A stretch of 64,000 bases of DNA from Gammaproteobacteria bacterium. GTDB taxonomy: Bacteria > Pseudomonadota > Gammaproteobacteria > Burkholderiales > Rhodocyclaceae. Shown one piece after another: positions 24,321-59,779 of the stretch. Location of the stretch: positions 1 to 64,000 of the forward strand of contig JAHJVE010000023.1 of assembly GCA_018828385.1 (NCBI GenBank). Direction: 5' to 3'. How positions within the stretch are numbered: the stretch's first letter is position 1; every line of letters begins with the position of its first letter. Below the pieces are notes generated by a model. The model was not told where the DNA came from and did not search any database. It saw nothing but the letters and a program-made list of their open reading frames with translations. The position numbers were made by a program, and so were the translations under genes.

Positions 24321-24459
24321 GCATCCATCACCGCGCGGCGGTGATTGTTCGCGGCCAGGATGCGAAAGCGAACGGGTAGCGGTCAGCGCGGCGAGCCGCG
24401 CCGTAGCCTTCAAGACCGAGGGCTACCTGGGCATGTCGCCGACAACGTCGGCAGGCATT
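24321..24459 (-). repeat. three-dyad structured element, copy 1 (upstream of radC)
   Basis: Dyads: GCATC (24322 region)/GATGC (24359-24363), then GTAGCC/GGCTAC (24402-24425), then GCCGAC/GTCGGC (24438-24452). Conserved unpaired GCGAACGGG and CTGGGCATGT lie between. Lies 80 bp or more before the radC start. Its right end overlaps the 3' end of the upstream thioredoxin-like gene, encoding the last residues MPADVVGDMPR. See the four other copies near 54.3, 55.9, 58.8 and 59.7 kb. Confidence 0.7.
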
Positions 24460-25208
24460 TCGGATGTGGGGGTGGCGGGCGAATCCGGCGCGTCGCTGGC
24501 CATTTCCCCGGCCGCCAGCAGGTCCATGGCCGAGAGCAAGGCATCGCCCTCGATCGGCCCCTGCAACAGGATGGCCTGGCCCGTCTGGCGATCGAGCAGT
24601 CGCAGCGACGGCGTGGCGGTCACGCCGCTCTTGGTGGCTTCCGCGGCCTGCGCGCGGATGGCCACGTTGGGGCGCTCGCTAGCCATGCACTGTTCGATGG
24701 CTGACGTTGTTTCGGGGTAACGCAAGCCATCGGGCAAGCCCTGGCCGTCGCTGCGCGTGTGGGCATAGACCCATTCGACCGCCTGCCAGAACGCCGCATG
24801 CCCGCCCGCTTCGGCGGCGCACTCGGCCAGACGTGCCTCGGCCGACGCGGCAGGCTCGTGCGCGGCCAGCGGCTGGTGATGCCATTGCAGCGCCACGTCG
24901 GTGTTGTTGCCGACCCAGCGCTTGAGCTGCGGGAAATACTCCCGGCAGAACGGGCATTCCAGGTCGGCATAGAGCGTCAGCGTGAAACGGCCTTCCGGGT
25001 TGCCCATCTGCCAGGGTGGCCCAGCGACCTGCGCCGTGCTGACCGGCGCGCGCGACGGCGCTGAGGATTCGCCGGGCGTCCGGGACACCAGCCAGATCAG
25101 CAGCAGCGCGACCAGCGCAGCAGCCAATACCCAGGGCCAGCGAGGCCGCCAGCGGCGACGGCGGAACGCCTGGACCTGCATCGGAATGGAAGGACGTTTC
25201 TGTTCCAT
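24423..25208 (-). CDS. DsbA/DsbG-type thiol-disulfide protein of the transfer operon
   Basis: A 261-residue inner-membrane-anchored protein (helix WPWVLAAALVALLLIWLV at ~24-42). Its periplasmic thioredoxin-fold domain has LTLYADLECPFCREYFPQL, with the CPFC active site, and a cis-Pro in VTATPSLRLLD. It probably makes or repairs disulfides in the Cys-rich TraU/TraH-like pilus proteins. The C-terminal PADVVGDMPR tail is encoded by the repeated structured element. It follows the VirB4-type ATPase gene by 13 bp. Confidence 0.85.
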   Translation of the reverse strand: MEQKRPSIPMQVQAFRRRRWRPRWPWVLAAALVALLLIWLVSRTPGESSAPSRAPVSTAQVAGPPWQMGNPEGRFTLTLYADLECPFCREYFPQLKRWVGNNTDVALQWHHQPLAAHEPAASAEARLAECAAEAGGHAAFWQAVEWVYAHTRSDGQGLPDGLRYPETTSAIEQCMASERPNVAIRAQAAEATKSGVTATPSLRLLDRQTGQAILLQGPIEGDALLSAMDLLAAGEMASDAPDSPATPTSEMPADVVGDMPR

Positions 25209-25221
25209 GGCGTTCTCCGGT

Positions 25222-28098
25222 TTACGACAGTTCCAGGGCCGGCGACTCGATGCCGCGGGCCTGGTCGATCTTCTCGGCCACCTTGAAAGCCGCTTCCAGT
25301 TCGGTGCAGCCGTACTGCTGCATGAGCTGGTAGCGTTCGGCCTTCTCCTCGGGTTCTGTCTGCGCGAGGGCGAGGTACAGGGACGGCGGCACGGCGCGGA
25401 ACAGCACTTCCATGCTCTTGGAGAGGATGACGCCTTCGGTGAATTTCCCCGCTTCCTTGCGCGCCGAAAGCATCAGCGCCTTCTGCGCGGGCGAGAGTTC
25501 GCGGAACCGCGCGATCTTCTCAACTTCATCGGGCGGCATGCTGAGACAGATCCACCACTCGATCATGTTGAGCATGGGCTCCGCGGCGCGCGGCAGGTCG
25601 TCGATGTTCTGCGTCGCGAGCCAGAACCAGGCCCCCAATTTCCTCCACATCTTTGTAATTTTCACGACGTAGGGCGCGAGCAGCGGGTTCTTCGTGATGA
25701 TGTGGCCTTCGTCGGTGACGTTGATGATCGGGCGTCCCAGATATTGGTCGCGCTCGGCGATGTTGTTCACCGTGCTGATCAGGCTGATGTAAGCGATGGA
25801 GAGCTGCGCGTTGTAGCCCTCGCGGGCGTATGTCGCGAGGTCAACCAAGGTGATGTCGGCTTCGGGCCACGGCGTGCCGTCGCGGTCGAACATTTCGCCG
25901 TCCGTGCCTTGACAGAACATGTCCATCGCATCCGCCATCTCCAGCAGCCGCACGCGGCGCATTTCGGGCAGCGTCGGGTCCTGGCCGCGGGCGCGCAACG
26001 CGTTGCGCACGTCGCGCGTAAGCACCGTGCGTTTGTCGGCCACGCAGTGCTCGGCGGCGTCGAGGATGCACTGACGGATCAGCGAGCGGTCAGCCCGCGT
26101 CATCCGGGCTTCCTCCTTGTCCTCTCCGCCCGTGATCATCAGCCGCGCCGTGATCTCCAGTTCGCCTAGCACGTCGCGCTGCTCGTCCGCCTCCATGGCC
26201 GAGGCATCTGGTGGCGGGTCTTCATCCAGCGCGTCGGCGTCGAGCGTCTGCACGTCGCTGGGCGTCTCGATCAGCCGACGCGCGTCTGCGAATGGCGCGA
26301 GGCTGATGCCCGAACCTGGGGCCAGCTTGACCCGGTTTACCGTCAGCCCGAGCATGCGTGCGAAGTCGCTGAACAGGCCGAAGCTGTTGCCAGCCTCCAC
26401 GATGAACAGCCGCGGTCGGTAGATGGCCGTGACCTGATTCAAGAGGTTGTTGAGCGTGGCGCTCTTGCCGGAGCCGGTGGGGCCGAACAGGAACAGATGG
26501 GCGTTCATCTGCCGATCCAGGCGGCTGAGCGGGTCGAAGGTGATCGGCCCGCCACCGCGGTTGAACATCGTGATGCCCGGGTGCCCCGTACCTTGAGCGC
26601 GGCCCCACACCGGCGACAGGTTCGCCGCGTGCTGAGCGAACATCAGTTGGGTGTACCACTTGCGCCGATCCTGGCCGGGGTTGTAGCAGCATGGCAGCCA
26701 CCGCAAGTAGCTGTTGAGCGGCGCCACCTCGTCGTCCTCGCGCACCGGCTGCAAGCCAGCATTGAGCATCACGTTCGCCAGGTCCAGGCCGCGCCGGTCC
26801 AGTTCCGCTTCGTCGCGTCCGCGCAGGTAGAATGCCAGCGTCCCCCGGTAGAGCTTGTGTGCGCTGCCGATGAGGGAGCGGGCTTCCTGCACGTCCTTCA
26901 ACGTCTGCTCCGACGCCAGCGTCTCGCCCACGGCCTTCTTCGCCAGGTGGTTGAGATCCGCTTCCAGGACATCCTGCGGCGTGGCGACCATCGTGAGACA
27001 CAGCAAGGTGTCTTCCGGCATCTGGTCGAACAGCGTGTTGATGGCATCCCCTTTGCGGGTCTCGCCGGTCAGGTGTCCGGTGCCGGGCGGCATGCGCAGC
27101 CGGTCGGTGATCAGCACGCGGTGCGGCATGCCGTCGAAATACCAGGTGCCGTGCTCCACGTCGGAGCGTGGCTGGCCGAAGAACAGCCGCTGGCTGAAAT
27201 CCCGCCCGCTCGCCAGCTCGATTTCGCCGGCCTCGCTTTCTTCGGTGCTGTCGGGGTAGCGCGCCAGCGCGTAGAAGCGCTCCCGGTCCTCTGCACTCGG
27301 TCCAAGCATCGCCGGGCGCGGATTGAACCACCGCAGCAGCCAGTCGTGGACGTCGGCTGCGACCATGCGCCGTGCCTGGATGCCGGCGTTCGCCAGGCCG
27401 CCGCACAGGCGGTCGCAGACGATGTTCAGCATCTGCTCGGGCGTCTGGCCGCGGCGGCTTGCCTGCCCAGTTGCACGGCGATAGATCACCATGCGCACCC
27501 GCCGCGTCTGGCCGCGCCAGCGCAGCCGCGTGACCACCGTGTCCTCGAACAGGCCGCCCGGCTTGGCGACCGCGCGCAGGTGGTGGCCGAAGAAGCGCAA
27601 GTAGAACTCGGTGAAAGCGGTGCTGCGGGCACGCGGCTGCACGTAGTCGCGCAGGGTCTGCATGTACTGGTCGAAGCTGGGCTCGTCCTGGGCATAGAGC
27701 TGGAGTACCCAGGGGTTTTCGTCCAGCTCATCGAACGAGTCCTGGAGCGCGTTCTCCAAGGCATCGCGGGCATGCGCGAGCCAGCCGGGCTCCCGCCCCT
27801 CGGTGCCCAGCGGCACCAGCTCGTAGAAGGCAGCGACCGACTGCCCATCCTCCAGCAGCATGGACTTCGACTGCGGCAAGAACTCCACCCAAGGCAGCAG
27901 TTCCGCGAACGACGGCGCGACGTCGTACAGCGCCTGCTCGTCGGCTACCGTCGCCGGCCTGCGGCCCTGGACCGCTGCGCCGGGTTCAGGGACGCCGGCC
28001 TGGCGCAAGGCCTCGACGTGGCGCTGCCAGCCGTCCGGCTTCTCTTCGTCGCCGGTGCCGGATGCGGCCAGCTTCGGCCAGGGAAGTTCCCAGCGCAT
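25222..28098 (-). CDS. VirB4/TraC-type conjugative ATPase (TIGR03744, PFL_4706 family)
   Basis: A 958-residue cytoplasmic ATPase that powers pilus assembly. Walker A is FLFGPTGSGKSATLNNL (about residue 530); Walker B is in the IINVTDEGHIITKNP region, where the usual Asp-Glu pair is DE. The N-terminal half is the TraC family domain; the C-terminal half is the P-loop domain. The ATG at 28098 overlaps the upstream stop (TGATG); a TTG one codon earlier is not needed. Length is normal for the family. Confidence 0.93.
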   Translation of the reverse strand: MRWELPWPKLAASGTGDEEKPDGWQRHVEALRQAGVPEPGAAVQGRRPATVADEQALYDVAPSFAELLPWVEFLPQSKSMLLEDGQSVAAFYELVPLGTEGREPGWLAHARDALENALQDSFDELDENPWVLQLYAQDEPSFDQYMQTLRDYVQPRARSTAFTEFYLRFFGHHLRAVAKPGGLFEDTVVTRLRWRGQTRRVRMVIYRRATGQASRRGQTPEQMLNIVCDRLCGGLANAGIQARRMVAADVHDWLLRWFNPRPAMLGPSAEDRERFYALARYPDSTEESEAGEIELASGRDFSQRLFFGQPRSDVEHGTWYFDGMPHRVLITDRLRMPPGTGHLTGETRKGDAINTLFDQMPEDTLLCLTMVATPQDVLEADLNHLAKKAVGETLASEQTLKDVQEARSLIGSAHKLYRGTLAFYLRGRDEAELDRRGLDLANVMLNAGLQPVREDDEVAPLNSYLRWLPCCYNPGQDRRKWYTQLMFAQHAANLSPVWGRAQGTGHPGITMFNRGGGPITFDPLSRLDRQMNAHLFLFGPTGSGKSATLNNLLNQVTAIYRPRLFIVEAGNSFGLFSDFARMLGLTVNRVKLAPGSGISLAPFADARRLIETPSDVQTLDADALDEDPPPDASAMEADEQRDVLGELEITARLMITGGEDKEEARMTRADRSLIRQCILDAAEHCVADKRTVLTRDVRNALRARGQDPTLPEMRRVRLLEMADAMDMFCQGTDGEMFDRDGTPWPEADITLVDLATYAREGYNAQLSIAYISLISTVNNIAERDQYLGRPIINVTDEGHIITKNPLLAPYVVKITKMWRKLGAWFWLATQNIDDLPRAAEPMLNMIEWWICLSMPPDEVEKIARFRELSPAQKALMLSARKEAGKFTEGVILSKSMEVLFRAVPPSLYLALAQTEPEEKAERYQLMQQYGCTELEAAFKVAEKIDQARGIESPALELS

Positions 28099-28538
28099 CA
28101 ATAGTCCTCCAGCCGTTCGCCGGGCATGGCGTACTGCACGCGCTGGTACAGGGGGAAGACCGTCGTGTAGCCCGGAACCGGCACGGGGTCCGTGCCCGCC
28201 AGGTGCGGGTACACATACATGACGAGATCGGGGTTGGGCAGGCGCTGGAACTGGCGATAAACCTCGTTGCGCGCCGTGCGCGTGTAGCGCATCTGCTCGA
28301 CGGGCGCAGCCTGCACATCGGCGTCGGTCAGCGGCCGGCGCAGGCTCTGGCGCGCGTCGAGCAACTGCCGGCGCGCGACCTGGCCGGTGCCACTGCCGCC
28401 GCCACCCGTTTCCTGCTGCCAGATGTCCATCATGGTGCGGTCGCTATGGGTCAGCAGTTCTTCCTTGCTGGTGGCGCAACCGCTGAGCACGGCGACGGCC
28501 GCGGCCAGCGCGAGGCCCTTAATCGAGTTCGAGCGCAT
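28098..28538 (-). CDS. ICE conjugation lipoprotein, PFL_4705 family (TIGR03751), TraV-like
   Basis: From the ATG at 28538 the protein has 146 residues with a lipobox (LALAAAVAVLSGC; Cys at 20). The C-terminus NPDLVMYVYPHLAGTDPVPVPGYTTVFPLYQRVQYAMPGE matches TIGR03751. It should be the outer-membrane core lipoprotein of the channel, like TraV/VirB7. Its start overlaps the end of the TraB-like gene by 20 bp. Confidence 0.9.
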   Translation of the reverse strand: MRSNSIKGLALAAAVAVLSGCATSKEELLTHSDRTMMDIWQQETGGGGSGTGQVARRQLLDARQSLRRPLTDADVQAAPVEQMRYTRTARNEVYRQFQRLPNPDLVMYVYPHLAGTDPVPVPGYTTVFPLYQRVQYAMPGERLEDY

Positions 28539-31940: not shown

Positions 31941-31952
31941 ACCGGCCTCGCC

Positions 31953-32312: not shown

Positions 32313-32328
32313 GGTCGTGCCTTTCAGG

Positions 32329-41668: not shown

Positions 41669-43051
41669 ATGGATTTCGAGCGAACCGACCCCATGCCTAA
41701 TCGCCGTCTAGAACAGCTTGAGCTGCTGCCCTACGTGGGCAAGTGGCTTCTCATCGCCAGCGTTGTTGCCGTCCTGGCCGGCAGCGCCTCCGCCTTCTTC
41801 CTCGTCTCCCTCGATCATGCCACGGCCTGGCGCGAGTCCCACCCTTGGGTGATTTGGCTGCTGCCGCTGGCCGGCCTGGGCGTGGGCCTCGTGTATCACC
41901 TGCTCGGCAAGACGGTGGACGGAGGCAACAACCTCATCATCGACGAGATCCACGACCCCAAGAAGGTGGTTCCGCTACGCATGGTGCCGCTGGTGCTGGG
42001 CGGCACGGTGGTGTCACACCTCTTCGGTGCTTCCGTGGGCCGCGAAGGCACTGCGGTGCAGATGGGCGGCGCGCTGGCCGACCAACTCACCCACGTGTTC
42101 CGCCTGGAACATGAAGACCGACGCATCCTGCTGATGTGCGGCATCGCCGCAGGCTTCTCGTCGGTGTTCGGCACGCCCATGGCGGGCGCCGTGTTCGGGC
42201 TGGAAATCCTGGCCATCGGGCGCATGCGTTATGACGCCCTGTTCCCCTGCATGGTGGCGGGCATCGTGGCCGATCAGGTATGTCTGGCCTGGGGCGTGCA
42301 CCACGCCCATTACGCGATCGGGCAGATCGTGCCGGTCGGCGCTTGGAGCGTGGTGGCGGTCGTGCTCGCCGGGGTCGTGTTCGGCATCGTCGGCATGCTG
42401 TTCGCCCGCGTCACTCACGCGCTCGGGGCGCGGGTCAAGCGGCTCATCCATTACGCACCCCTTCGGCCGTTCGCCGGCGGCATCGTCATCGCCCTCGCGG
42501 TCTGGGCGCTCGATGGCTACCAGTATATCGGTCTGGGCATCCCGGAGATCGAGCGCGCCTTCCAGGAGCCGATGCAGCCGTGGGATTTCCTTGGCAAGTT
42601 CGGCTTCACGGTCGCGTCGCTGGGCACGGGCTTCAAGGGCGGTGAGGTCACCCCGCTGTTCTACATCGGCGCTACCCTGGGCAACGCACTGGCGCCGATC
42701 CTGCAGATGCCGTTCGCTTTCATGGCCGGCATCGGCTTCGTCGCGGTGTTCTCCGGCGCGGCCAACACCCCGATTGCCACGACCCTGATGGCGATGGAAC
42801 TGTTCGGTGCCGAGATCGGTCCGCTGGCGGCCATCGGCTGCGTCACGGCTTACCTGTTCTCGGGGCACACCGGCATTTACCACGCGCAGCGCGTAGGCCA
42901 CAGCAAGCACCGCCGGCATCGGGCCGCTGTCCCTGAAGACCTGCGCATCGCCGATCTTGCCGCCTTCCTCAAGAAGCGCCGCGAAACCTCGAAGTCTTCC
43001 GCCGCAGATCCTGTGGCACTGCCCCCTGTCTCCAAGGAAAGCGTTGAATGA
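41669..43051 (+). CDS. CLC-F type fluoride/proton antiporter
   Basis: A 460-residue CLC membrane protein. VDGGNNLIIDEIH replaces the usual GSGIP motif, and GASVGREGTAVQMGGALADQ carries the gating Glu; together these mark the fluoride-specific CLC-F group (EriC-F). Other CLC motifs: GFSSVFGTPMAGAVFGLE and GFKGGEVTPLFYIGATLGNALA. It expels F- in exchange for protons. The ATG at 41669 is used; a second at 41693 is possible. A basic/Ser-rich tail follows the last helix. First gene behind the fluoride riboswitch. Confidence 0.92.
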   Translation: MDFERTDPMPNRRLEQLELLPYVGKWLLIASVVAVLAGSASAFFLVSLDHATAWRESHPWVIWLLPLAGLGVGLVYHLLGKTVDGGNNLIIDEIHDPKKVVPLRMVPLVLGGTVVSHLFGASVGREGTAVQMGGALADQLTHVFRLEHEDRRILLMCGIAAGFSSVFGTPMAGAVFGLEILAIGRMRYDALFPCMVAGIVADQVCLAWGVHHAHYAIGQIVPVGAWSVVAVVLAGVVFGIVGMLFARVTHALGARVKRLIHYAPLRPFAGGIVIALAVWALDGYQYIGLGIPEIERAFQEPMQPWDFLGKFGFTVASLGTGFKGGEVTPLFYIGATLGNALAPILQMPFAFMAGIGFVAVFSGAANTPIATTLMAMELFGAEIGPLAAIGCVTAYLFSGHTGIYHAQRVGHSKHRRHRAAVPEDLRIADLAAFLKKRRETSKSSAADPVALPPVSKESVE

Positions 43052-46570: not shown

Positions 46571-48850
46571 TCACGCCGCCACGAGTTGCCTCGCGAGAGC
46601 GACCTCTACCGAGTCTCCATCCTGATTGAGGACGTCGAGCCCGGATTCGGGCACGTCTCCCGACGTGCTCTGGGACACCATGATCTTCTTGGCCATCAGC
46701 TCCAGGCAGGTCATCTGCGAGGAACCGGCGTAGCCGAGGTAGATCACGCGCACCGGCTGTTTCTGTCCGATGCGCCAGGAGCGGCGTGCCGCCTGCTGGA
46801 GCGAGTACACGTTGTAGCCCGACTGCATGAAAACGATCGTCGGGAAGTCCAACAGGTCCAGTCCCGTCTTGACCAGTTCGGGATTGGTGATGAGCACGTC
46901 GATGCCACGGTCCAGTTGCTCGGCGATCCAGTCCTCGCGTCGGCTGGCGTCCACGCTTGCGCGCAGCACCGCCACCCTAAAGCCTTCCTGCTCCAGCAGC
47001 ACCTTCAAGCGCGACGTGGTGTCACGCGTGCCGGTATAGACCGTGTAGGCCAGGACCTTGCGGCCCTGCGCCTTCTCTTCCTTGCAGATGTCGATCAGCT
47101 CGCGCTCTTTCGGCGTCACCTCGAACTCGTTGAACTGAGCCGGGACGAACGCCAAGGTGTTGCGCGTGCGCGGATGCACCACGGTCTCCGACCGGAAGCA
47201 GCAGTCCGGCCAGGCCAGCAGTACGTTGAGCACCACACCCAGCAGCGTCGTATCGCGTCGCGCAAGAGCCTGTTTCAGCTCCGCGGTCAGCCGACCCGCC
47301 AGGTCGCGGTAGGCCGCGGCTTGTGCCGTGTCCATTGCGACTTCACGGAACTCCTCGTCATACGGCGGCAGGACGTTGCCGCCGATGTCCTTGAGCTTGA
47401 GGAAGATCGTGAACGGCAGGATGCACCGCAAGACCCCCTTCGGCCCGAAGCCCGGAGCCTTGACCGTGCGCACCGATACCTTGGTGCCCCTGGCCGTCTT
47501 GTGCGCCGTGCCGGTGTTTTCGGAGTAGATGTCCTTGAGGACCCCGTGGTCCCTCATGAACGCCATGGCCGCCGAGGTCATGCTGCCGCTCGTGGTCGGG
47601 CGGTAGCCGTCTTCGATCATCCGCCCAGGCAGGGCTCGGAACAGCAGGTAGAACAGGTCGTCCCCGTAGCCGCCCATCAGCGTGCCTGTCAGCAGCAAGG
47701 TCTTACGAGCCTTCGCCGCCAGCACGCCCATGGCTTGGCCCTGGGCACTGCCACCGTTCTTGTACTCGTGTGCCTCGTCCGCGATGCACAGGTCGAACGT
47801 GCCTTGCGGCAGGTAGCGCTTGATGAACTCGGACGGCTGGTAGCCGCCCTCGCCAAAGCCGAGCTCCATGTTGGCCATCGCACGCTCCATGCGCGTGGCC
47901 TGACGGTCGGAAAACACCAGTTCGCCGTTGCCGTCCATGAGGTTGATGAACTCATGGATGTTGTCGCCCAGCATCGACGCCAGGAACCCGTCGCCGAACT
48001 TCTGCATCAGCTTCTGCGCGGTGACTTCCCCGATCGTCGGGATGCGCTTCAAGGCTTTCAGCACGGCCGAGGACCGGTCGCTGCCGGACAGGCTGCGCGG
48101 GCGGATCAGTGTCCACAGGGGTGCGGCGCAATGGCTGCACTTCCTGCGGTATTCCTCGGCTTGGAGCGCGACCGGGTTGACCGGCTCGCCGTCGAGGTCG
48201 GTGATGACCGTACCGCAGTCCGGGCACGCCGCCACGTTGCCATGGCGGGTACGCCGCTGGGTGAAGACAGGCTTCCAGTGGAACCCCATCCGCATCCTGA
48301 CCCGGCCCAAGACGAAGAACTCCTGGCCCGTGGGCTGGACATTCAATTGCTCGCGCAGCTTGATGAGCTTGACGAGCGTGTCCGGCCCGTTGAGCACCCA
48401 CACCTTGGCGCCTGCCACTGTCTCCTGGATCTCGCGCCGCCACTTGTAAACAAGGTGCGGTGGCGAAAGAACCAGGGTGCGGCGGTAGCCTTCGGCGTTG
48501 AGAACGGCGGCCGTGGCGATGCCGACGGTCGTCTTGCCACAGCCCATTTCGCCATTGACAATCGCGGCGCGTTCGCCACGGTCGATCAGCAGTTCGGCGG
48601 CGGCGTGGACGACTTCGGCCTGGGCCGGGAACAGCTTGCGCTTGAGGCTGGCGACGACGAGTTGCCGGTGCGCCTGCGGCTGGCCGTTATAGACCGGCGG
48701 GTTGGCGCTGTTGAGGGCGTCGAGCAGTTCGTCGCCGAACTCGCCGACGAAATCCTGAAGGCTCAGGGTCAGAGGGGAAGATTCCGCATCGAGCAGTTCG
48801 CCCTGTACGGGTGCGGCTTCAACGGCAGTGGTTTCGAGATCGAGGGACAT
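46571..48850 (-). CDS. SNF2/DEAD-like helicase of the ICE
   Basis: A 759-residue superfamily 2 helicase. Motif I is IVNGEMGCGKTTVGIA, motif II IADEAHEYKN, motif VI QAARRSWRIGQKQPVRVIYLG, as in SNF2 enzymes. A Cys4 zinc finger (CPDCGTVI ... CSHCAAPLW, about residues 210-250) lies between motifs I and II. The ATG at 48850 was chosen over the longer frame because the leader hairpin lies directly upstream. Conserved in ICEclc-type elements beside the methyltransferase gene; role in DNA processing or protection during transfer is inferred. Confidence 0.88.
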   Translation of the reverse strand: MSLDLETTAVEAAPVQGELLDAESSPLTLSLQDFVGEFGDELLDALNSANPPVYNGQPQAHRQLVVASLKRKLFPAQAEVVHAAAELLIDRGERAAIVNGEMGCGKTTVGIATAAVLNAEGYRRTLVLSPPHLVYKWRREIQETVAGAKVWVLNGPDTLVKLIKLREQLNVQPTGQEFFVLGRVRMRMGFHWKPVFTQRRTRHGNVAACPDCGTVITDLDGEPVNPVALQAEEYRRKCSHCAAPLWTLIRPRSLSGSDRSSAVLKALKRIPTIGEVTAQKLMQKFGDGFLASMLGDNIHEFINLMDGNGELVFSDRQATRMERAMANMELGFGEGGYQPSEFIKRYLPQGTFDLCIADEAHEYKNGGSAQGQAMGVLAAKARKTLLLTGTLMGGYGDDLFYLLFRALPGRMIEDGYRPTTSGSMTSAAMAFMRDHGVLKDIYSENTGTAHKTARGTKVSVRTVKAPGFGPKGVLRCILPFTIFLKLKDIGGNVLPPYDEEFREVAMDTAQAAAYRDLAGRLTAELKQALARRDTTLLGVVLNVLLAWPDCCFRSETVVHPRTRNTLAFVPAQFNEFEVTPKERELIDICKEEKAQGRKVLAYTVYTGTRDTTSRLKVLLEQEGFRVAVLRASVDASRREDWIAEQLDRGIDVLITNPELVKTGLDLLDFPTIVFMQSGYNVYSLQQAARRSWRIGQKQPVRVIYLGYAGSSQMTCLELMAKKIMVSQSTSGDVPESGLDVLNQDGDSVEVALARQLVAA

Positions 48851-48863
48851 GGTGATGTTCCAA

Positions 48864-48909
48864 TAAAAAATGGGGCATGCCCCCCCACAGCGGGGTGATG
48901 GCATGCCCC
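48864..48909 (-). terminator. terminator-like hairpin just before the helicase start
   Basis: On the leftward strand GGGGCATGCC ... GGCATGCCCC is followed by ATTTTTTATT, ending only 13 bp before the ATG. It has the form of an intrinsic terminator between the upstream gene and the helicase, so it may act as an attenuator or a processed 5' end. Confidence 0.7.
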
Positions 48910-49367: not shown

Positions 49368-50477
49368 TCAGCGGATGGTCAACACCTCGCCCCGCGTGGG
49401 GGAGCCAGGCGTCATGTCCCACGCGCGGATGACGGGCACGAACTTGTCGGTGAGGATGCGGGTCTCGGCGATGGAGCCGTCTTCGCGTTCGGTGAATTCG
49501 CGTTGAAGCGTCTTGTCCTTGTGGGTGTCACCTTTGACGACGAGTACGCGCCCGGTCTTGGAGCGCACAACCCCCGAGATCGCGCCCGCGGCCAGAGCCA
49601 GGGCGAGATGCCAGTGGGACAAGGCACGCGCCGGTGGACGCAGCGACTGCTGCGCGGCCCCCAGGTGCGTGTCCTGCGACGGCCAGAGGCCTTGCAGCCG
49701 GCCGACTTCATCGGCGAACTGCTCTGGCTCCATCGTCACGCGGAAGAAATGCTCCGGCTCGGCCGGACTGGCGGGGACGATGTACGGCAGGAACGGCCAT
49801 TCGCTCGGCAGTTCCTCGGCTTCGACTTCACCAAGCCCGATCTGCAGCAGCAGATTGCGCACGGCCTTGAGACCATCGGGTGCCAGCTCGCGCTGGCGCA
49901 CCCTGCGGCCGAAGATCACCACCTGCTTGAACTGCGTTTCCACCGCTCGGTAGATGCGTAGGTCCGTGTAGTGGCGTGTCAGCCAGCCGACCAGCTCGGC
50001 GTCGAGCACGTAGCCAGGGACGATGAAGACCAGCACGCCGCCATACTGCAATAGCGAGAGGCTGCGCTGATAGAAGAGCTTCTCGAAGCGGGCACGGCCC
50101 TGGCCCTGATAGCCGATGTTGCCGTTGACGTCCTTGGACAGATCGCCATACGGTGGGTTGAGCCAGAGCAGTCCGAAGGACTGCTTGGAGATCATCGTGT
50201 CCATCAGGTCCGCGTGCAGGCAGTGATCGACCAGGCCGCGGGCATGGCGTGCCCGCTCCGCGTCGAACTCGACGGCGAACGCCTTGGCTTGCTCGCGCCC
50301 GAGAGCATGAGCGGCTTCGGCGATCGCCACGCCTTCGCCGGCGCAGGGATCGAGGATGCACATCGGGCCATCGCTGGGCATCAGTGCGTTGAGGGCTCTT
50401 TCGAGCGTGGGTTCGTCGGTCGGGTAATACCCGTTCTTGGCGAAATTGCGGGCGAGCCGCGGGAACATGAGAGCCAT
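49368..50477 (-). CDS. DNA methyltransferase-like protein (NPPY motif)
   Basis: A 369-residue protein. MCILDPCAGEGVAIAEAAHALG is the SAM-binding motif I, and FGLLWLNPPYGDLSKD is the NPPY catalytic motif IV of N6-adenine or N4-cytosine methyltransferases. No partner endonuclease is adjacent, so an orphan modifying or anti-restriction role is likely. The C-terminal third (about 230-369) is unrecognised. ATG at 50477 behind CAGGAGACTTCC. Confidence 0.85.
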   Translation of the reverse strand: MALMFPRLARNFAKNGYYPTDEPTLERALNALMPSDGPMCILDPCAGEGVAIAEAAHALGREQAKAFAVEFDAERARHARGLVDHCLHADLMDTMISKQSFGLLWLNPPYGDLSKDVNGNIGYQGQGRARFEKLFYQRSLSLLQYGGVLVFIVPGYVLDAELVGWLTRHYTDLRIYRAVETQFKQVVIFGRRVRQRELAPDGLKAVRNLLLQIGLGEVEAEELPSEWPFLPYIVPASPAEPEHFFRVTMEPEQFADEVGRLQGLWPSQDTHLGAAQQSLRPPARALSHWHLALALAAGAISGVVRSKTGRVLVVKGDTHKDKTLQREFTEREDGSIAETRILTDKFVPVIRAWDMTPGSPTRGEVLTIR

Positions 50478-50541
50478 GGAAGTCTCCTGGTTGGCGGGGA
50501 TGAAGTGCGAAAGCACGCCTTGGCGTGCTCTCGCGGGCGGG

Positions 50542-53161: not shown

Positions 53162-53218
53162 GATGGTTCTCCTTGGGGAATAGGAAAAAGGCAAGGCCCC
53201 GTGAGGGGCCATGCCGGA

Positions 53219-54136
53219 TCAGAACGAAGCAGCCAATGCCGGCTCCTGCTCCTCGACTTCACCTGCGGGCTCGCGCACGGCGGGCTCGACAGGCTGGTCG
53301 GCAGCGGTGTCGGCGGCAACCTCGGCTTCGGGCGCGGGTGCGTCCTCGGCTTGCGGCGCCTCGGCTTGCGCCTGGCTCGTCGGATAGACCTGGGTGCCGT
53401 CGATCTTGATGAGACCGATGTGGACCAGCGTCGATTCCAGGCTCGCTCCCGGTTCCCCGGCGCGCTCGCCCTTGGTGCGGATGTACGGATCGATCTTCAT
53501 GTCGTTCAGACGGAAGGCGATCAGCACCTTGCGGTCCCCTTCGATGGCCTGCACGCACCGGCGAACCAGGTGCTCGGCTTCAGGGGTGGCGACGATGGTG
53601 TCGAAGTACCGATATTCCGGTTCACCGACAGGTCCGGCCAGCGCCGCGACGCAGCACGACAGGAACGGATCGCCATCCTTGGGGGAGACGTCCTTCGGGC
53701 GGCTGAGGTAGCCGATGCCGCGGGTGATCAGCTCGTGCTGCTTGATCGAAGCCAGTTCGGCCCGGTCAAGCGGCTCGGCCTTCAGCAGTCGCGCCTTCAG
53801 AGACGCGGCGGCCTGGCCCTTGTGCTCACCCTTGTCGCGGATGTACGCATCGCCCCAGAGGTCGCCGAGGCGGAAGCGCACCAGCGGCCGCTGCTTGGGA
53901 TCGTCAACGCCGATGTAGCGCTCGACCAGTTTCTTGGCCTCGGCACCCGAGACCTTGACGTCGAAGTAGCGGTAGCTGGGGTCCTTGGCGGAGCCGACCA
54001 GCGCGGCGATGGTGCATGCCAGGAAGGGCTGCGCACGGCGGCCGCCCCGGACGGGAACCTCGCGGACACGCTGGATGTAGCCGATGCCCGAGGTGTGGAG
54101 GTCGAAATACGATTTCTCGTTGGACGTGGTGCTCAT
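53219..54136 (-). CDS. DUF3577 family protein with two repeats
   Basis: From the ATG at 54136, 305 residues. Two similar units (about 15-120 and 130-240) each have GIGYI/L, PFL(A/S)C, A-x-x-G, YRYFD, VRFRL/IAFRL and Y-I-R-x-KGE. This is the DUF3577 (STY4534-like) family seen on ICEs; the whole protein is an internal duplication plus an acidic, low-complexity tail (about 245-300). Function unknown; the beta pattern suggests nucleic-acid binding. Structured element copy 2 lies upstream. Confidence 0.85.
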   Translation of the reverse strand: MSTTSNEKSYFDLHTSGIGYIQRVREVPVRGGRRAQPFLACTIAALVGSAKDPSYRYFDVKVSGAEAKKLVERYIGVDDPKQRPLVRFRLGDLWGDAYIRDKGEHKGQAAASLKARLLKAEPLDRAELASIKQHELITRGIGYLSRPKDVSPKDGDPFLSCCVAALAGPVGEPEYRYFDTIVATPEAEHLVRRCVQAIEGDRKVLIAFRLNDMKIDPYIRTKGERAGEPGASLESTLVHIGLIKIDGTQVYPTSQAQAEAPQAEDAPAPEAEVAADTAADQPVEPAVREPAGEVEEQEPALAASF

Positions 54137-54227
54137 GGTGAATCTCCATTGGGATGAAGCGGAGACACACCGGCCCCACGCATGCGGGGAAAGGTGCGTA
54201 ACCCCGCGGTGGGTTGATAAGGCGAAA

Positions 54228-54364
54228 GCATCCGCCACCAGGACTGGTGGCCGCTCGCGGATGGATGCGGTGCGAGCTGGCTCGGTCACGCAGTGGAAAC
54301 TGCGCGGCAACCTCGAAGACCGATGGTTGCCTGGCATGTCGCTGACAACGTCAGCAGGCATGGG
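54228..54364 (-). repeat. three-dyad structured element, copy 2 (upstream of DUF3577 gene)
   Basis: Dyads GCATCC/GGATGC (54228-54268), GCAACC/GGTTGC (54307-54330) and GCTGAC/GTCAGC (54340-54354). The box GCGAGCTGG and the linker CTGGCATGT are shared with the other copies. It lies after a terminator and 92 bp or more before the DUF3577 start. Surveys have named candidate RNA motifs after DUF3085 and DUF3577; whether this is one of them is not settled here. Confidence 0.75.
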
Positions 54365-54446
54365 GGCAGCATGGACGGGCTTCGCGCGCGCGGCAGTAAT
54401 CAATCGGCATCCGGACGCTTCCCTTTGTCCATGCCGCCAGCGCCGC

Positions 54447-54473
54447 AAAAAAAGAAGCCCCCATGAAGGGGGC
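54447..54473 (-). terminator. terminator after the DUF3085 gene
   Basis: Leftward strand GCCCCC-TTCAT-GGGGGC then TTCTTTTTTT, 25 bp past the DUF3085 stop. Strong intrinsic terminator. It is followed by structured element copy 2, which therefore starts a new unit. Confidence 0.88.
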
Positions 54474-54497
54474 CGTGAGGGGACAGTGGTATTCGCA

Positions 54498-54851: not shown

Positions 54852-54867
54852 GGTTGATCTCCTGAAG

Positions 54868-54902: not shown

Positions 54903-54929
54903 TGGGGGCAAGTCGCCGGTAGGCTGCGG

Positions 54930-55733: not shown

Positions 55734-55799
55734 GGGAATCTCCTTGAGGAAGAACAAGGGATTCCCCGCCCGCAAGGGAGAGGTCCCTTGTGGGTGGAT

Positions 55800-55908
55800 G
55801 GACGCGGTGCGTCCGTAGGAAGAAACAACCAGCGCGGTTTCCCGTGCTTGCAGCCTCGAAGGTCTCGGCTGCCTGGGCATGTGTCGGCAACGCCGACGAA
55901 CATGGGGG
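55800..55908 (-). repeat. three-dyad structured element, copy 3
   Basis: Dyads GGACGC-GGT-GCGTCC (55800-55814), GCAGCC/GGCTGC (55850-55872) and GTCGGC-AA-CGCCGAC (55883-55897). The linker CTGGGCATGT is kept. Shorter than other copies because the first dyad has only a 3-nt loop. It is 67 bp or more before the start of the gene ending at 54930. Confidence 0.7.
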
Positions 55909-55987
55909 CAAGGATGGCCCTGGGCCGGGCTACCCGCCCGCATGAAACGGCACTGCGCCGCACCCGGTTTCCCGCGCTGGGGACAAG

Positions 55988-56010
55988 AAAAAGGCCCCTC
56001 GAAAGGGGCT
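55988..56010 (-). terminator. terminator after the 92-residue protein gene
   Basis: Leftward strand AGCCCC-TTTCGA-GGGGCC then TTTTTC, 8 bp past the stop at 56018. Separates that gene from structured element copy 3. Confidence 0.85.
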
Positions 56011-56017
56011 GGTTGGA

Positions 56018-56296
56018 TCAGGCTTGGTACACGAAGTAGTGTTCGCGCTGACGCGGGAAGAACACATGCTTCCACGTGTCGCCGCCGGTGTTGCCACCGT
56101 CGAAGACGACCATCTCGTAGTCGTCAATGTCGGTGTCCACCAAGTCGGCGCCGGCGATATGGCGCATGTGCAGCGTGCCGTGCGTGCGCTCGAATACCAG
56201 GATCTGGCCGATGGCGTCGTCCTGGCTCATGGCGTTGACGCAGGCTCCGAGCTGGTGCTCGAAGTCCGGTGCGCGCGAAATGAGGTTGGGGAACAT
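56018..56296 (-). CDS. small conserved ICE protein
   Basis: From the ATG at 56296, 92 residues: APDFEHQLGACVNAMSQDDAIGQILVFERTHGTLHMRHIAGADLVDTDIDDYEMVVFDGG, then a basic C-terminus. Acidic middle, no membrane helix, no known motif. Leader hairpin CCAGCCCG/CGGGCTGG and TAGGAGC precede it. Confidence 0.7.
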   Translation of the reverse strand: MFPNLISRAPDFEHQLGACVNAMSQDDAIGQILVFERTHGTLHMRHIAGADLVDTDIDDYEMVVFDGGNTGGDTWKHVFFPRQREHYFVYQA

Positions 56297-56390
56297 GAGG
56301 TTGCTCCTATGAAAATGGACCAGCCCGACTCTTGGGGGAGACGGGCTGGCATGAGGGGACAAAGAGGAAGACCCGCGTGTCGCGCGGCTG

Positions 56391-57128
56391 CTAGCCCTCG
56401 GCCAGCGGCAGGCCCAGCAACGCGGGTGCGTCTGCATCGAGGATGAGGATGCGCACATCGGCCTGGCCAGCCAGTTCAAGGATGTTCGCCAGGTCGTCCG
56501 GCATGCCCTTGTTCCGGTGCTCCTGTCGAAGCTGCTCGGCGGTGATGCCCTCGGCGTGCTCCAGGTTCTGGTCCGTCCAGGGCGTGGAAATCAGCTTGAC
56601 GCCGATCGCCGGGCTGTACGGCACACGGAAGGCGATGAACAACATGGCCTCCGGCGTGGCGATGTCCGCCAGGCCGGCGAGGTAGTGCCAGCTATCGACC
56701 GTGATGTGCTCACGGCTGATTTCCCAGCACCGGCTGTAGTAGCCGGTCTCGAAACTCAGGCGCTGCATCGCTTCCCGCGCGGCCTCGGCCGAATAGGCGT
56801 CACCGACGTGGACTGGGCGGCCGTCGAAGTCCTCGCCATGGATGGCATAGACCACGGCACCGATCACACCTTCGCCGCTGACGCCTTCACCGGCATCGCA
56901 TTCGGCCAGTACCTCGGCGTTCACGGCTTCGCGGCCATCGCTGACCACGGCGAAATCGTTGGCGACGATGCAGGACGATGAAACCAGTTCCTCGTCGGAG
57001 AGGTGTTGCTGGCTCGCGTGGATGTTGCGCCAGACATGCGGGCTTCCGTCCTCGTAGCTGATGCACAGCGTGCGGACGATTTTCAGATTCCAGTAGCCAC
57101 GGTGAAAGGGATTGGGTTTCTGGGACAT
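56391..57128 (-). CDS. conserved ICE protein of unknown function
   Basis: From the ATG at 57128, 245 residues, soluble. YWNLKIVRTLCISYEDGSPHVWRNIHASQQHLSDEELVSSSCIVANDFAVVSDGREAVNAEVLAE is followed by GEDFDGRPVHVGDAYSAEAAREAMQRLSFETGYYSRCWEISREHITVDSWHYL. No catalytic motif. The last stretch ends LDADAPALLGLPLAEG. Leader hairpin CCAATTCCCG/CGGGAATTGG upstream. Confidence 0.72.
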   Translation of the reverse strand: MSQKPNPFHRGYWNLKIVRTLCISYEDGSPHVWRNIHASQQHLSDEELVSSSCIVANDFAVVSDGREAVNAEVLAECDAGEGVSGEGVIGAVVYAIHGEDFDGRPVHVGDAYSAEAAREAMQRLSFETGYYSRCWEISREHITVDSWHYLAGLADIATPEAMLFIAFRVPYSPAIGVKLISTPWTDQNLEHAEGITAEQLRQEHRNKGMPDDLANILELAGQADVRILILDADAPALLGLPLAEG

Positions 57129-57208
57129 TGGGAACTCTCCAGATTGAATAATGGAGCCAATTCCCGCCACCGGGAATTGGACCCGGTGGGTTGAAAATGG
57201 AAAATGCG

Positions 57209-57895
57209 TCAGGCGGCGCTGATCGTTGGCATCTGGGCCAGTCGGTCGGCGACGCGACGGCGCACATTCAGGCGGAACTGCTCGTCGTTGATGCCTGCGA
57301 GCAGGTTGGCGGCCTCCAGCGCGATCAATGCCGAGGCCTCTTCGATGTCGGCGGACAGGATCGTCTTGCGCAGTTGGTCGCCGAGTTGGAGCGCCTGCGA
57401 GGACGTTCTGAAGACCTGGACCTCGCGGCTCAGGTAGCAGCCGTTGCCGCCGAACTCGAACAGCCTCGGCCTGCTGCAATGCCAGCAGCCTTCGAACTGG
57501 ATGGCGGTCAGGCGATGGCCGTCATCGAAGCAGGAAGCGATCAGAAGCAAGGCTTCCAGGTCGGCGCTGTCCTCGAACTTGTGGTGCTCGATCAGGTTCT
57601 CCAGCTCCGCGTCCTGCTCGGCACCGAAGTGCGCGGCCAGCCGTTCGAGCAGAGGTGGAATCGACAACTCTTCGTCGTCGGGCATGGGGATGCCGAGTTG
57701 TGCGGCCAGGTCTTCCAGGCCGTCCAGCACATCCGTCCAGCGCGGATCATTGGTCTCGGCGATCTGGGCGATGTAGGCCTGCCCGTTGCCGGGATGGCCT
57801 TCGTTCAGCGCGAAGGCGCCGAACAGCGCCTTGATGACGGGGGTGACACGCTCCAGCACGAGAACGCCCGTGCCTTCGTAGTAGTTGTTCGCCAT
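57209..57895 (-). CDS. conserved ICE protein of unknown function
   Basis: From the ATG at 57895, 228 residues, helical and acidic (VLVLERVTPVIKALFGAFALNEGHPGNGQAYIAQIAETNDPRWTDVLDGLEDLAAQLGIPMPDDEELSIPPLLERLAAHF). A Cys pair with His (FEGCWHCSRPRLFEFGGNGCYLS) may form a metal site. Leader hairpin TGCGGA/TCCGCA upstream. Family not recognised. Confidence 0.72.
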   Translation of the reverse strand: MANNYYEGTGVLVLERVTPVIKALFGAFALNEGHPGNGQAYIAQIAETNDPRWTDVLDGLEDLAAQLGIPMPDDEELSIPPLLERLAAHFGAEQDAELENLIEHHKFEDSADLEALLLIASCFDDGHRLTAIQFEGCWHCSRPRLFEFGGNGCYLSREVQVFRTSSQALQLGDQLRKTILSADIEEASALIALEAANLLAGINDEQFRLNVRRRVADRLAQMPTISAA

Positions 57896-58038
57896 GGTGG
57901 CTCCTTTCGAGAAAGCGGAGCCAGCCCATGCGGACGATGGCATCCGCAGGGTGATGGAGAAGAAATTGAGGGACATGGCCTTTTGGGCGCATGTCCCTCT
58001 CGGGGGGAACGAAAGACAGTGGTGTGCCGGAGACCGGC

Positions 58039-58431
58039 TCACCAACCGTTGTAGTTCACGAGCAGGTCGGCGATGACCTTGCGGCGTTGCAGGTCGAGAC
58101 CGTCGAAGTCCGACAGCCCGTGGAAGTGGCAGCGCTTGAGCATGGCACCGCCCTCACGCGCGTTGTAGAAGCTGACCATGGCAGACAGGAACATGCGTTC
58201 GCCGCTGCTCAGGACGCCGAGGGCGTCGTTGAGCCGCAGCATGTTGGGACGCAGATCCCACTTGCTCTTGGCCTGGTTCAGACCTTCACGGGTGCCGTCG
58301 CCGAACCACTCGGGGCCAGCAATCTCGACGCCACGCTTCCATGCCTCGAAAAAGGCTTGAGGCGCGGCGGCGAAATGCTGTTCTTCCCGCATGATCTGAT
58401 CGACGACTTCCCGCGGCAGTAGCTGGTTCAT
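58039..58431 (-). CDS. conserved ICE protein of unknown function
   Basis: From the ATG at 58431, 130 residues, helical: LPREVVDQIMREEQHFAAAPQAFFEAWKRGVEIAGPEWFGDGTREGLNQAKSKWDLRPNMLRLNDALGVLSSGERMFLSAMVSFYN. It starts 22 bp after the upstream small gene and lacks its own leader hairpin, so the two are one unit. No known motif. Confidence 0.72.
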   Translation of the reverse strand: MNQLLPREVVDQIMREEQHFAAAPQAFFEAWKRGVEIAGPEWFGDGTREGLNQAKSKWDLRPNMLRLNDALGVLSSGERMFLSAMVSFYNAREGGAMLKRCHFHGLSDFDGLDLQRRKVIADLLVNYNGW

Positions 58432-58453
58432 GACGTGATTCCTCCAGTTTGGA

Positions 58454-58678
58454 TCAAGGAACGGCGAGCTGGGACCAGCCGCCTCTTTCGAGGGCACGTT
58501 GAGCCGCGGCATAGCTGCGGAAGTACTCGCGGGATTCCCGCGAAACGGGGCCTTCGGTATCGCGCGTGCCGATGTAGTGGCCGGCGGCGCTTTGCAGGAC
58601 TTCGAGCGGCAGGAACTTGCCGCAGTAGGTCGAGGCCAATTGCCCGAAGGTTTGGCCGAAAGAGGCTTGCTGGGACAT
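58454..58678 (-). CDS. small conserved ICE protein
   Basis: From the ATG at 58678, 74 residues: FGQTFGQLASTYCGKFLPLEVLQSAAGHYIGTRDTEGPVSRESREYFRSYAAAQRALERGGW. Helical; no membrane segment or catalytic motif. AAGGAG precedes the start. Structured element copy 4 lies upstream; the preceding gene is separated by a terminator. Confidence 0.7.
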   Translation of the reverse strand: MSQQASFGQTFGQLASTYCGKFLPLEVLQSAAGHYIGTRDTEGPVSRESREYFRSYAAAQRALERGGWSQLAVP

Positions 58679-58749
58679 GGATGGGCTCCTTGGAAAAGCG
58701 GGGCCTCGTCCCTCACGGGATGGCAGCTCCCGCACGCGGTTGATAAAAA

Positions 58750-58880
58750 GCATCGACGTCACGGGGACGCGCGTCCGCAGACCTGATGCGATGCGGACTG
58801 GTGGGCAACGCGGGAGAGACCCGCGGCAGCCTGGAACCCTGGCTGCTGGCATGTGCTGACGGATCAGCGAACATGCGGGC
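58750..58880 (-). repeat. three-dyad structured element, copy 4
   Basis: Dyads GCATC/GATGC (58750-58789), GCAGCC/GGCTGC (58826-58845) and GCTGAC-GG-ATCAGC (58855-58868 region). The box GCGGACTGG and the linker CTGGCATGT are kept. It lies after the terminator at 58952 and 72 bp or more before the gene at 58678. Confidence 0.7.
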
Positions 58881-58951
58881 AGCTTCGTGCGCGGGCCGTG
58901 CCGCGTCAGTTGGAAAACGGCATCCGGCCCAGCCCCGATTGATGCGCGCAG

Positions 58952-58983
58952 AAAAAAAGAAGCCCCGCATCGAGTGCGGGGCT
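58952..58983 (-). terminator. terminator after the 185-residue protein gene
   Basis: Leftward strand AGCCCCGCA-CTCGA-TGCGGGGCT then TCTTTTTTTC, 26 bp past the stop at 59009. Strong intrinsic terminator. Structured element copy 4 follows. Confidence 0.9.
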
Positions 58984-59008
58984 GTCAGGAGGGTGCGTCG
59001 GTACTGGA

Positions 59009-59566
59009 TCAGTCGGGCTTGTCGCCCAGGACATGCTGCTTCCACAGGTCGAATGCCTGCTCGGGAGGAAGCTCGGCGAGGATGACGATGGGCTGGGCCT
59101 GCCGGGCGCGCAGCGAGGCGAAGTACGCCTTGCGGTCAGCGATGGCCTTGAGCTTGATGCCCTTGAGGAACTTCAGCTTGCCGTCCTTGATGAACAGCAC
59201 TTTGTTGCCGATGTCCCGGTTGAACGCGGCTCGCACCTTGCGTTCCGCGTGCATGGCATCGGCCAGTTCATCGACCAGGAAGTCGAGCGTCATGTCGATG
59301 TAGTGAGGGTCTTCACCCTCCTGGCCGAGGTCAAGCGGCGCAGGCGGCAGGCCCTTAGCGAAGGCTTCGGCTTGAGCCAACAGCGCTGCCTTGCCGTTGA
59401 GCGCGTGGAGGAACGTCGAGCCGCCGTGGCCATCGTTGCGGGCCTCGGCGATGGGAGTGCCGTCGAACACGACGGTGGCGCTGAAGCACATCGTCTCCTC
59501 GCTGGCGAAATCTGCCACCTTGAGGTTCTTCAGCGTGATGCGGTCTTGCTTGGTGATGTTTTCCAT
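59009..59566 (-). CDS. conserved ICE protein of unknown function
   Basis: From the ATG at 59566, 185 residues: DRITLKNLKVADFASEETMCFSATVVFDGTPIAEARNDGHGGSTFLHALNGKAAL, then DPHYIDMTLDFLVDELADAMHAERKVRAAFNRDIGNKVLFIKDGKLKFLKGIKLKA. The first half looks like a small beta domain, the second helical and basic. No catalytic motif recognised. Structured element copy 5 lies upstream. Confidence 0.75.
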   Translation of the reverse strand: MENITKQDRITLKNLKVADFASEETMCFSATVVFDGTPIAEARNDGHGGSTFLHALNGKAALLAQAEAFAKGLPPAPLDLGQEGEDPHYIDMTLDFLVDELADAMHAERKVRAAFNRDIGNKVLFIKDGKLKFLKGIKLKAIADRKAYFASLRARQAQPIVILAELPPEQAFDLWKQHVLGDKPD

Positions 59567-59643
59567 GGGAAGTCCTGAAATCGACCGGGTGGCGACATGC
59601 CCCTGACGGGACGTGGCGGCCATCCCGTGGGTTGGAGAAATGA

Positions 59644-59779
59644 GGCATCGATGCCCCGGTGGGCAGCGTTCGCCGGTGAGATGCCGAGGCGAACTGGCTG
59701 GTGGCGTGGGCGGAACCCACGGCAGCCTTGACACCCTGGCTGCGGGCTGCTGCCGATACATCGGCAATGCAGGAGGGAG
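59644..59779 (-). repeat. three-dyad structured element, copy 5
   Basis: Dyads GGCATC/GATGCC (59644-59685), GCAGCC/GGCTGC (59722-59743) and GCCGAT-AC-ATCGGC (59752-59765). The box GCGAACTGG is kept; the linker is changed to GGGCTGCT. It lies 78 bp or more before the gene at 59566 and 31 bp past the methyltransferase stop. Confidence 0.7.

Follow-up and report, generated by a model that had tools for sequence, protein, structure and literature searches.

radC RNA leaders repeated in an ICEclc-family conjugative element as candidate translational switches

The DNA studied here, referred to as the window, is a 64,000-nucleotide stretch from an assembly of a Gammaproteobacteria bacterium of the Rhodocyclaceae (GCA_018828385.1, contig JAHJVE010000023.1, positions 1 to 64,000). 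It holds five copies of a structured element which an initial annotation had described as three dyads with compensatory base changes, and had offered as either a shared 5' leader RNA or a two-site operator in an integrative and conjugative element (ICE). All five are matches to the radC RNA family of Rfam (RF01754), and it is near certain that each copy is the RNA leader of an mRNA of a conjugative element of the ICEclc family. From the sequences and their predicted folds, we propose that this leader probably acts as a translational switch common to several transcripts of the element.

Five copies of the radC RNA and their fold

A cmscan search with Rfam 15 returned five RF01754 matches in the window, all on the minus strand, with E values from 1.8e-25 to 7.8e-12 over model positions 1-149. 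Their bit scores (Table 1) are 1.8-3.3 times the gathering threshold of 40 bits, and a search of the whole assembly found these five copies only. The family carries the curated Rfam type "Cis-reg", and the table entry for radC RNA in PMC2864571 (2010) gives RNA as 'Y' (certain), cis-regulatory as 'y' (probable), riboswitch as '?' and Proteobacteria as the range. The RNA as such is therefore not new; it belongs to a known Rfam family, an outcome that the initial annotation had itself named as a refutation and that applies as far as novelty is concerned. The motifs named after DUF3085 and DUF3577, which it had mentioned, have no corresponding Rfam family at threshold in the window. Its places for the copies hold to within 10 bases, apart from the third copy, whose 3' end extends 32 bases further. 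Every copy lies in sense orientation upstream of a coding region, the distance from the RNA 3' end to the presumed start codon being 80, 91, 34, 71 and 78 nt for copies 1 to 5, which corrects an earlier figure of 65-170 bp. The first 47 nt of copy 1 overlap the 3' end of the upstream open reading frame (ORF) 24423-25208, whose stop at 24423 falls within the RNA. Three copies follow terminator-like hairpins, as the annotation had said. It had also been right about the RadC and DUF3577 (STY4534) genes, and for the genes that it had left as unknowns, downstream of copies 3, 4 and 5, neither Pfam nor NCBIfam gave a match at E 0.001.

Table 1. Features of the window connected with the five radC RNA copies
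Feature	Position	Strand	Basis or remark
radC RNA copy 1	24321..24469	-	RF01754, 133.7 bits; upstream of RadC gene
RadC-family gene (JAB domain, 164 aa)	23746..24240	-	PF04002 2.3e-40
Copy 1 leader	24241..24294	-	RNAfold; P6 ~24294-24279; P7 ~24272-24263 with 24251-24241
radC RNA copy 2	54228..54372	-	RF01754, 122.8 bits; upstream of STY4534/DUF3577 gene
STY4534 family ICE replication protein (DUF3577)	53219..54136	-	NF040584 1.9e-74, PF12101 7.3e-91
Copy 2 leader	54137..54207	-	P6 54207-54202/54189-54184; P7 54171-54161/54147-54137 (P7 also by stem finder)
Region upstream of copy 2	54373-54420		GCCGATT or GCCGTTT box
Intrinsic-terminator-like hairpin after DUF3085 gene, before copy 2	54456..54474	-	terminator scan
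radC RNA copy 3	55768..55914	-	RF01754, 98.9 bits
Gene after copy 3, place of ICEclc ORF84835	54930..55733	-	no family match
Copy 3 P7	55734..55766	-	55766-55755 with 55746-55734
Region upstream of copy 3	55915-55960		GCCGATT or GCCGTTT box
Intrinsic-terminator-like hairpin before copy 3	55994..56009	-	terminator scan
radC RNA copy 4	58750..58885	-	RF01754, 80.7 bits; place upstream of ICEclc ORF88400
Gene after copy 4	58454..58678	-	no family match
Region upstream of copy 4	58886-58940		GCCGATT or GCCGTTT box
Intrinsic-terminator-like hairpin before copy 4	58961..58983	-	terminator scan
radC RNA copy 5	59645..59782	-	RF01754, 73.7 bits; place upstream of ICEclc ORF89247
Gene after copy 5	59009..59566	-	no family match
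Region upstream of copy 5	59783-59830		CGGATTGAT box

The fold was examined in two alignments. A3, made with MAFFT from 30 diverse copies, is the source of three covarying helices that lie beyond the Rfam structure as printed, here named PKa, P4 and PKb. A4 holds 139 matches from 97 sources (126 distinct rows, two matches truncated at a locus end being kept) and was built by a model without these three helices; the A3 sequences partly recur in it, so the counts for the three helices are not fully independent. PKa pairs the P2 loop with a segment after P3. P4 is read as GTTCGC/GCGAAC, with the variants GCTCGC/GCGAGC, GTCCGC/GCGGAC, GTGCGA/TCGCAC and GCTTGC/GCAAGC, and PKb as GCATCC/GGATGC, with GCTTCC/GGAAGC and GCATTC/GAATGC. 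Since PKa crosses P2 and PKb crosses P4, the fold contains two pseudoknots. This alters the earlier description at two points: the supposedly free GCGAACTGG-like box is one arm of P4, and the GCATC/GATGC stem crosses P4 and so forms a pseudoknot. Over the 126 distinct rows, 95.0% of cells in the whole structure are paired, compared with 78.8% after shuffling and 27-44% after sliding; both sides change in 41 of 46 pairs, and 910 double changes stand against 237 in shuffles. The claim that the two arms change together was borne out. Helices 1, 2, 3, 5 and 8 (P1, P2, P3 and the terminal hairpin included), which are part of the alignment model, have 88-99% of cells paired, and among the helices outside it the pairs that change on both sides number 5 of 5 in PKa, 5 of 6 in P4 and 3 of 6 in PKb. 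A 2020 study (PMC7657543) already notes covarying pairs that are missing from both the Rfam and the ZWD structure of radC; the existence of extra pairs is therefore not in itself a new claim. What is added here is the three helices beyond the printed fold, the promoter placement, the P6 and P7 hairpins and the mapping onto ICEclc ORFs described below. The printed RF01754 structure lacks PKa, P4 and PKb and ends before P6 and P7.

The base changes also carry a strand signature. At paired positions of the gene-sense strand the ratio of G.U to A.C is 373:75 in the 126 rows and 186:39 after thinning to 66 rows below 85% identity; in the three added helices it is 98:28 and 38:16, respectively. Because a dyad read by a protein dimer in duplex DNA should lack such a bias, the operator interpretation is disfavoured.

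The placement of promoters in relatives points in the same direction. Among 78 non-redundant contexts out of 125, 40 have a TTGAC box positioned 33-47 nt ahead of the first stem (shuffled mean 0.64) and one has it further upstream, and a -10-like hexamer region about 13-18 nt before the first stem stands out; this arrangement would put the start of transcription close to that stem. A terminator-like hairpin lies within 150 nt upstream of the RNA in 27 of 88 cases. The five window copies all lack the TTGAC box, and a sigma-70 promoter scan found no sigma-70 promoter before copies 2-5. Instead, a GCCGATT or GCCGTTT box stands upstream of copies 2-4 and a CGGATTGAT box upstream of copy 5 (Table 1), and this box may be the activator site for the promoters of these copies. 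Copy 1, which overlaps the end of the upstream gene, has no such box, and a loose pattern finds it in 15 of the 38 contexts without TTGAC.

A predicted switch at the ribosome binding site

In many leaders RNAfold predicts two hairpins between the RNA and the start codon, P6 and then P7, the second of which takes up the Shine-Dalgarno sequence in its stem. A script guessed the start codons used here, except in the comparison of pKLC102 and a Stutzerimonas megaplasmid, which relies on RefSeq annotation. Of the 126 distinct copies, 97 have their guessed start 20-110 nt downstream of the RNA. The Shine-Dalgarno tests exclude the others, among them the copies about 500 nt from a DUF3987 gene and one copy (L102:1-142) that had no guess. 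Near-identical leaders were thinned to 49-60. The 52-leader sets used for stem scores and alternative pairing omit L163, L202 and copy 4 (58750), the 49-leader set used for the probability of being unpaired, P(unpaired), includes all three, the guessed starts of L163 and copy 4 being doubtful, and the alternative-pairing test covers 49 of the 52 leaders, stems scored below 15 having been dropped.

The mean P(unpaired) of the Shine-Dalgarno sequence was below 0.3 in 48 of 49 non-redundant leaders, compared with 53 of 113 control starts from elements of the same family (Mann-Whitney p 4e-12). Stem scores had medians of 20 in 52 leaders and 15 in 135 controls (p 1e-10), reached at least 18 in 34 of 52 leaders vs 35 of 135 controls, and exceeded the 95th percentile of shuffles in 29 of the 52. 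The six leaders with RefSeq starts, from pKLC102 and the Stutzerimonas megaplasmid, scored 13.0, 22.5, 17.0, 22.0, 20.0 and 23.0 (five at 17 or above), and 21 other starts there had a median of 14.5. On a MAFFT alignment of 49 leaders, 77.4% of P7 cells were paired vs 72.2% in shuffles and 32-57% when slid, with 34 double changes vs 20.9 in shuffles. In copy 1, P7 was seen by RNAfold and was not selected by the automatic stem finders. Taken over the relatives, these sequence comparisons indicate a Shine-Dalgarno stem beyond chance, but not for window copies 4 and 5.

Some leaders could also form a second arrangement, in which the P6 5' arm (GCGGGGA, GGAGGGC) pairs instead with the P7 5' arm (UCUCCGC, GCCCUCC, AUCCCUUGU); in leaders of the copy-3 type the P5 arm (ACAAGGGAU) can take over this role. 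This alternative pairing beats shuffles at p<0.05 in 19 of 49 leaders. For copy 2 it would join 54207-54202 with 54164-54159 and 54199-54193 with 54171-54165. In copy 3 the P5 arm CAAGGGA (55790-55784) can pair either its own 3' arm or the P7 5' arm. Attenuation by an intrinsic terminator between the RNA and the gene was also considered and rejected: a terminator-like hairpin occurs there in only 1 of 52 leaders, and five T in a row in 8 of 52.

In the switch that we propose, the radC RNA, with its compact double-pseudoknot fold, would form the sensor half, and the output half would lie downstream of the Rfam model, in many relatives as P6 followed by P7. P7 would keep translation off by sequestering the Shine-Dalgarno sequence beside the start codon. 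In some leaders the P6 5' arm could swap to the anti-Shine-Dalgarno arm of P7, and this would free the ribosome site. A ligand, either a protein encoded by the element or the host or, less likely, a small molecule, would bind the radC domain and change the fold of the leader. No more than three unpaired columns reach 90% conservation, which argues weakly that a protein may fit better than a small molecule. The leader would thereby co-regulate, post-transcriptionally, RadC, the STY4534 replication protein and uncharacterised genes, and with them DNA processing and replication. Family membership, the covarying fold, the strand bias, the promoter placement in relatives and the excess of P7 over controls come from sequence comparison; beyond these, we propose that P7 represses, that the P6/P7 fold and the alternative pairing exchange in the direction described, and that a ligand on the radC domain drives the exchange.

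Translational riboswitches and autoregulatory mRNA leaders combine a structured sensor with sequestration of the Shine-Dalgarno sequence. The radC leaders resemble them in having a sensor, a ribosome-site hairpin and, in part, a possible anti-anti-Shine-Dalgarno arm, and differ in being repeated five times in one mobile element and in having few invariant unpaired bases. It is quite possible, though we would not yet count on it, that they represent a new class of translational switch, with a double-pseudoknot sensor and a two-hairpin platform bearing an anti-anti-Shine-Dalgarno arm, present in up to five copies per ICEclc-family or pKLC102-type element, and answering to a ligand supplied by the element or by the transfer state so as to gate DNA-processing and replication proteins.

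Several results weigh against the proposed switch. Shuffled upstream arms still hide the Shine-Dalgarno sequence in 61% of trials, since the DNA is rich in G+C, and 4 of the 21 control starts of pKLC102 and the Stutzerimonas megaplasmid score at least 22. Covariation in P7 is moderate, its five pairs with changes in both arms being no more than in shuffled data, and copies 4 and 5 and the relatives L158 and L145 lack a convincing P7. P6 is an RNAfold prediction. For the alternative pairing, 30 of 49 leaders do not reach significance; copy 2 is among them (p=0.21), as is copy 1 (p=1.0), for which the script had picked a wrong stem. Predicted energies favour the OFF fold in both copy 2 (P6 and P7 at -26.8 vs -18.6 kcal/mol for the alternative) and copy 3 (-22.3 vs -9.2 kcal/mol). 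In alignment A3 the G.U:A.C excess is smaller, at 77:28; the three added helices together give 18:12, and P4 alone shows the opposite, 1:4. The strand bias is clear overall, not in every helix. Some copies lie about 500 nt upstream of a different type of gene. Finally, no functional study of radC RNA, and no experiment on it, was found in searches of open-licence papers, judged by titles and abstract openings.

Correspondence with ICEclc and alternative explanations

ICEclc belongs to the same family as the element in the window and has radC RNAs at the five corresponding ORFs, as judged through the element of P. xenovorans LB400, whose five radC RNAs are the only ones of its genome by this search. 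ICEclc ORF numbers follow AJ617740 as used in PMC2892462. Stop codons in LB400 agree exactly with these numbers for ten ORFs down to 89746 and are one base off for ORFs 88400, 85934 and 84835. The ICEclc numbering then jumps by an insertion of about 1.85 kb, past which twelve ORFs, beginning with 81655, again agree exactly. Where this jump occurs, between its third and second radC RNAs, LB400 has a group II intron (L024 4512-4803). The five RNAs stand upstream of ORFs 58432 (RadC), 81655 (DUF3577), 84835, 88400 and 89247. In LB400 the fifth RNA is followed by a frame of 185 aa (G060:C1:3572763-3573320), which runs on to 88944; a stop for ORF89247 exists one base off, in another frame. From these frames ORF89247 is probably a shorter reading of the same gene, and the offset between the two is a difference between records or elements. 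Another genome (G943) has two element copies, 99.94% identical to LB400 over 49.8 kb.

Published data on ICEclc bear on the position of these leaders. PMC2892462 maps a weak primer-extension end to about 250 bp before ORF81655, which fits the first base of the RNA, 235 nt upstream of that ORF, and it counts the ORF81655 transcript, predicted to reach up to 14.3 kb, among the most abundant. The relevant results of PMC9286271 describe nine bimodal promoter regions and a 27-bp motif common to eight promoters. By the lists given there, ORFs 58432, 81655 and 88400 combine a radC RNA with a bimodal promoter region, and three of the eight motif-bearing promoters have the RNA; alpA, inrR, ORF67231, traI and intB13 have the motif and no radC RNA match, and ORFs 84835 and 89247 have the RNA and are reported without the motif. 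The regions upstream of ORFs 84835 and 89247 are said in that account to gain reads without bimodal reporter expression, the 89247 fragment, not the 84835 fragment, being above background in the main population. P58432 is described as weak or not an independent promoter, as expected because the radC RNA copy there is inside an operon. The same account infers additional post-transcriptional control, since the P81655 and Pint reporters are similar and their read coverage is not. A Gibbs-sampling search for a 27-wide motif in seven promoter regions of LB400 settled on no single shared motif. The word 'radC' does not occur in the available text of PMC2892462 or PMC4063739; PMC9286271 was not searched for it. 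Separately, LB400 has three copies of the palindrome CTATCCCC(A/T)GGGGATAG (G060:C1:3565993, 3566135 and 3568144), of which two precede the inrR transcript at a distance of 142 bp from each other, and this palindrome is possibly the site of a regulator.

The strongest alternative to a translational switch is that the leader acts mainly on elongation or stability of the transcript, its double-pseudoknot 5' part protecting the mRNA, blocking or recruiting an RNase, or binding an antitermination factor with which RNA polymerase could read through long transfer operons. We regard this as unlikely, while giving it real weight, since three copies follow terminators, the ORF81655 transcript is as long and abundant as described above, and the gain of coverage at ORFs 84835 and 89247 was ascribed by the authors of PMC9286271, as one option, to transcript processing. 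However, ORF73676 shows the same coverage effect in that account and has no radC RNA, the Shine-Dalgarno hairpin points to translation, and a terminator-like site separates RNA and gene in a single one of 52 leaders.

The leader might instead serve mainly to release a trans-acting small RNA, as the copies about 500 nt before the next large ORF in 12 sequences could suggest. The close spacing to a guessed start in most distinct copies and the near absence of terminator-like sites before the gene make this very improbable.

A double-stranded operator for a master activator (BisDC in ICEclc), with the dyads as protein sites, was the second option of the initial annotation. In its favour, three of the five ICEclc sites fall in bimodal promoter regions, and copies of the ICEclc type, which lack TTGAC, carry the GCCGATT/GCCGTTT-like box upstream, which may be the real activator site. 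The 27-bp motif and the radC RNA dissociate in both directions, G.U exceeds A.C on one strand, about half of the relatives have the TTGAC box ahead of the RNA, helices that cross one another are difficult to interpret as operators, and one conserved copy lies inside an operon, overlapping the upstream gene; we therefore consider the operator hardly credible. The other option, a shared 5' leader RNA, is upheld by family membership, strand-biased covariation, promoter placement in half of the relatives and the Shine-Dalgarno hairpin in many.

RadC-type genes also occur in leading regions of plasmids. An Frpo-like promoter or a priming site, formed by single-stranded DNA in the recipient at conjugative entry, would suit the RadC gene, the topoisomerase and DNA methylase genes nearby and the fact that G.T pairs can form in single-stranded DNA too, but it is scarcely to be believed given a bias on the mRNA-like strand (the fold of an Frpo-type promoter is on the template strand), a duplex-DNA promoter box before 40 of 78 copies and a Shine-Dalgarno hairpin that functions in RNA only.

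Distribution of the RNA and neighbouring features

The initial annotation had advised a covariance-model search of related ICEs and comparison with Rfam; the model built in this analysis found the RNA in relatives. It stands directly upstream of the DUF3577 relative in 80 of 80 loci, with 226 copies in total; these loci are the best 80 of 168 relatives and hence a close sample. Among more distant carriers the RNA was present in 2 of 4, namely pKLC102 and the Stutzerimonas megaplasmid, with three copies each. It was not found in the examined stretches of ICEHin1056 and a B. cenocepacia plasmid, the latter giving a 10-bit match with E 0.26. In whole-genome samples, host counted, it occurred in 3 of 60 relatives, 2 of 369 genomes of the class and 6 of 398 of the phylum, and, host not counted, in 133 of 398 genomes sampled from a single family, which is inferred to be the Pseudomonadaceae.

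In 12 inferred-Pseudomonadaceae sequences (L177, L180, L184, L185, L189, L191, L193, L194, L195, L197, L106 and L110) the radC RNA lies at about 1500-1645. Downstream of it come some 420-500 nt of conserved DNA that appears to be non-coding and that contains a CGCCCGTCTCT/AGAGACGGGCG hairpin and, towards its end, a GCCTCC/GGAGGC pairing. In L184 a DUF3987 gene follows this stretch, and a 19-kb P. putida plasmid has a similar stretch before a YfjI-family gene. No other Rfam family matched at gathering level in the 6 of the 12 that were scanned. The stretch is possibly a long structured leader of an integrative element.

Elsewhere in the window, ICEclc-type neighbours comprise the conjugative ATPase traC_PFL_4706, TraD, TIGR03752 and TIGR03759 proteins and topoisomerase III, and the element core includes helicase-like (46571-48904) and methyltransferase-like (49368-50516) genes, whose matches lie below curated cut-offs. 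The sole other gathering-level Rfam match is a fluoride riboswitch (RF01734, 41537-41609, plus strand, 46 bits). The gene directly after it (41669-43051) has weak-to-moderate matches to ClC-type channels, and the two are likely to be fluoride-resistance cargo.

If the radC RNA leaders do act as translational switches, a widespread family of conjugative elements would have a second, post-transcriptional layer of control beside its known bistable promoters.

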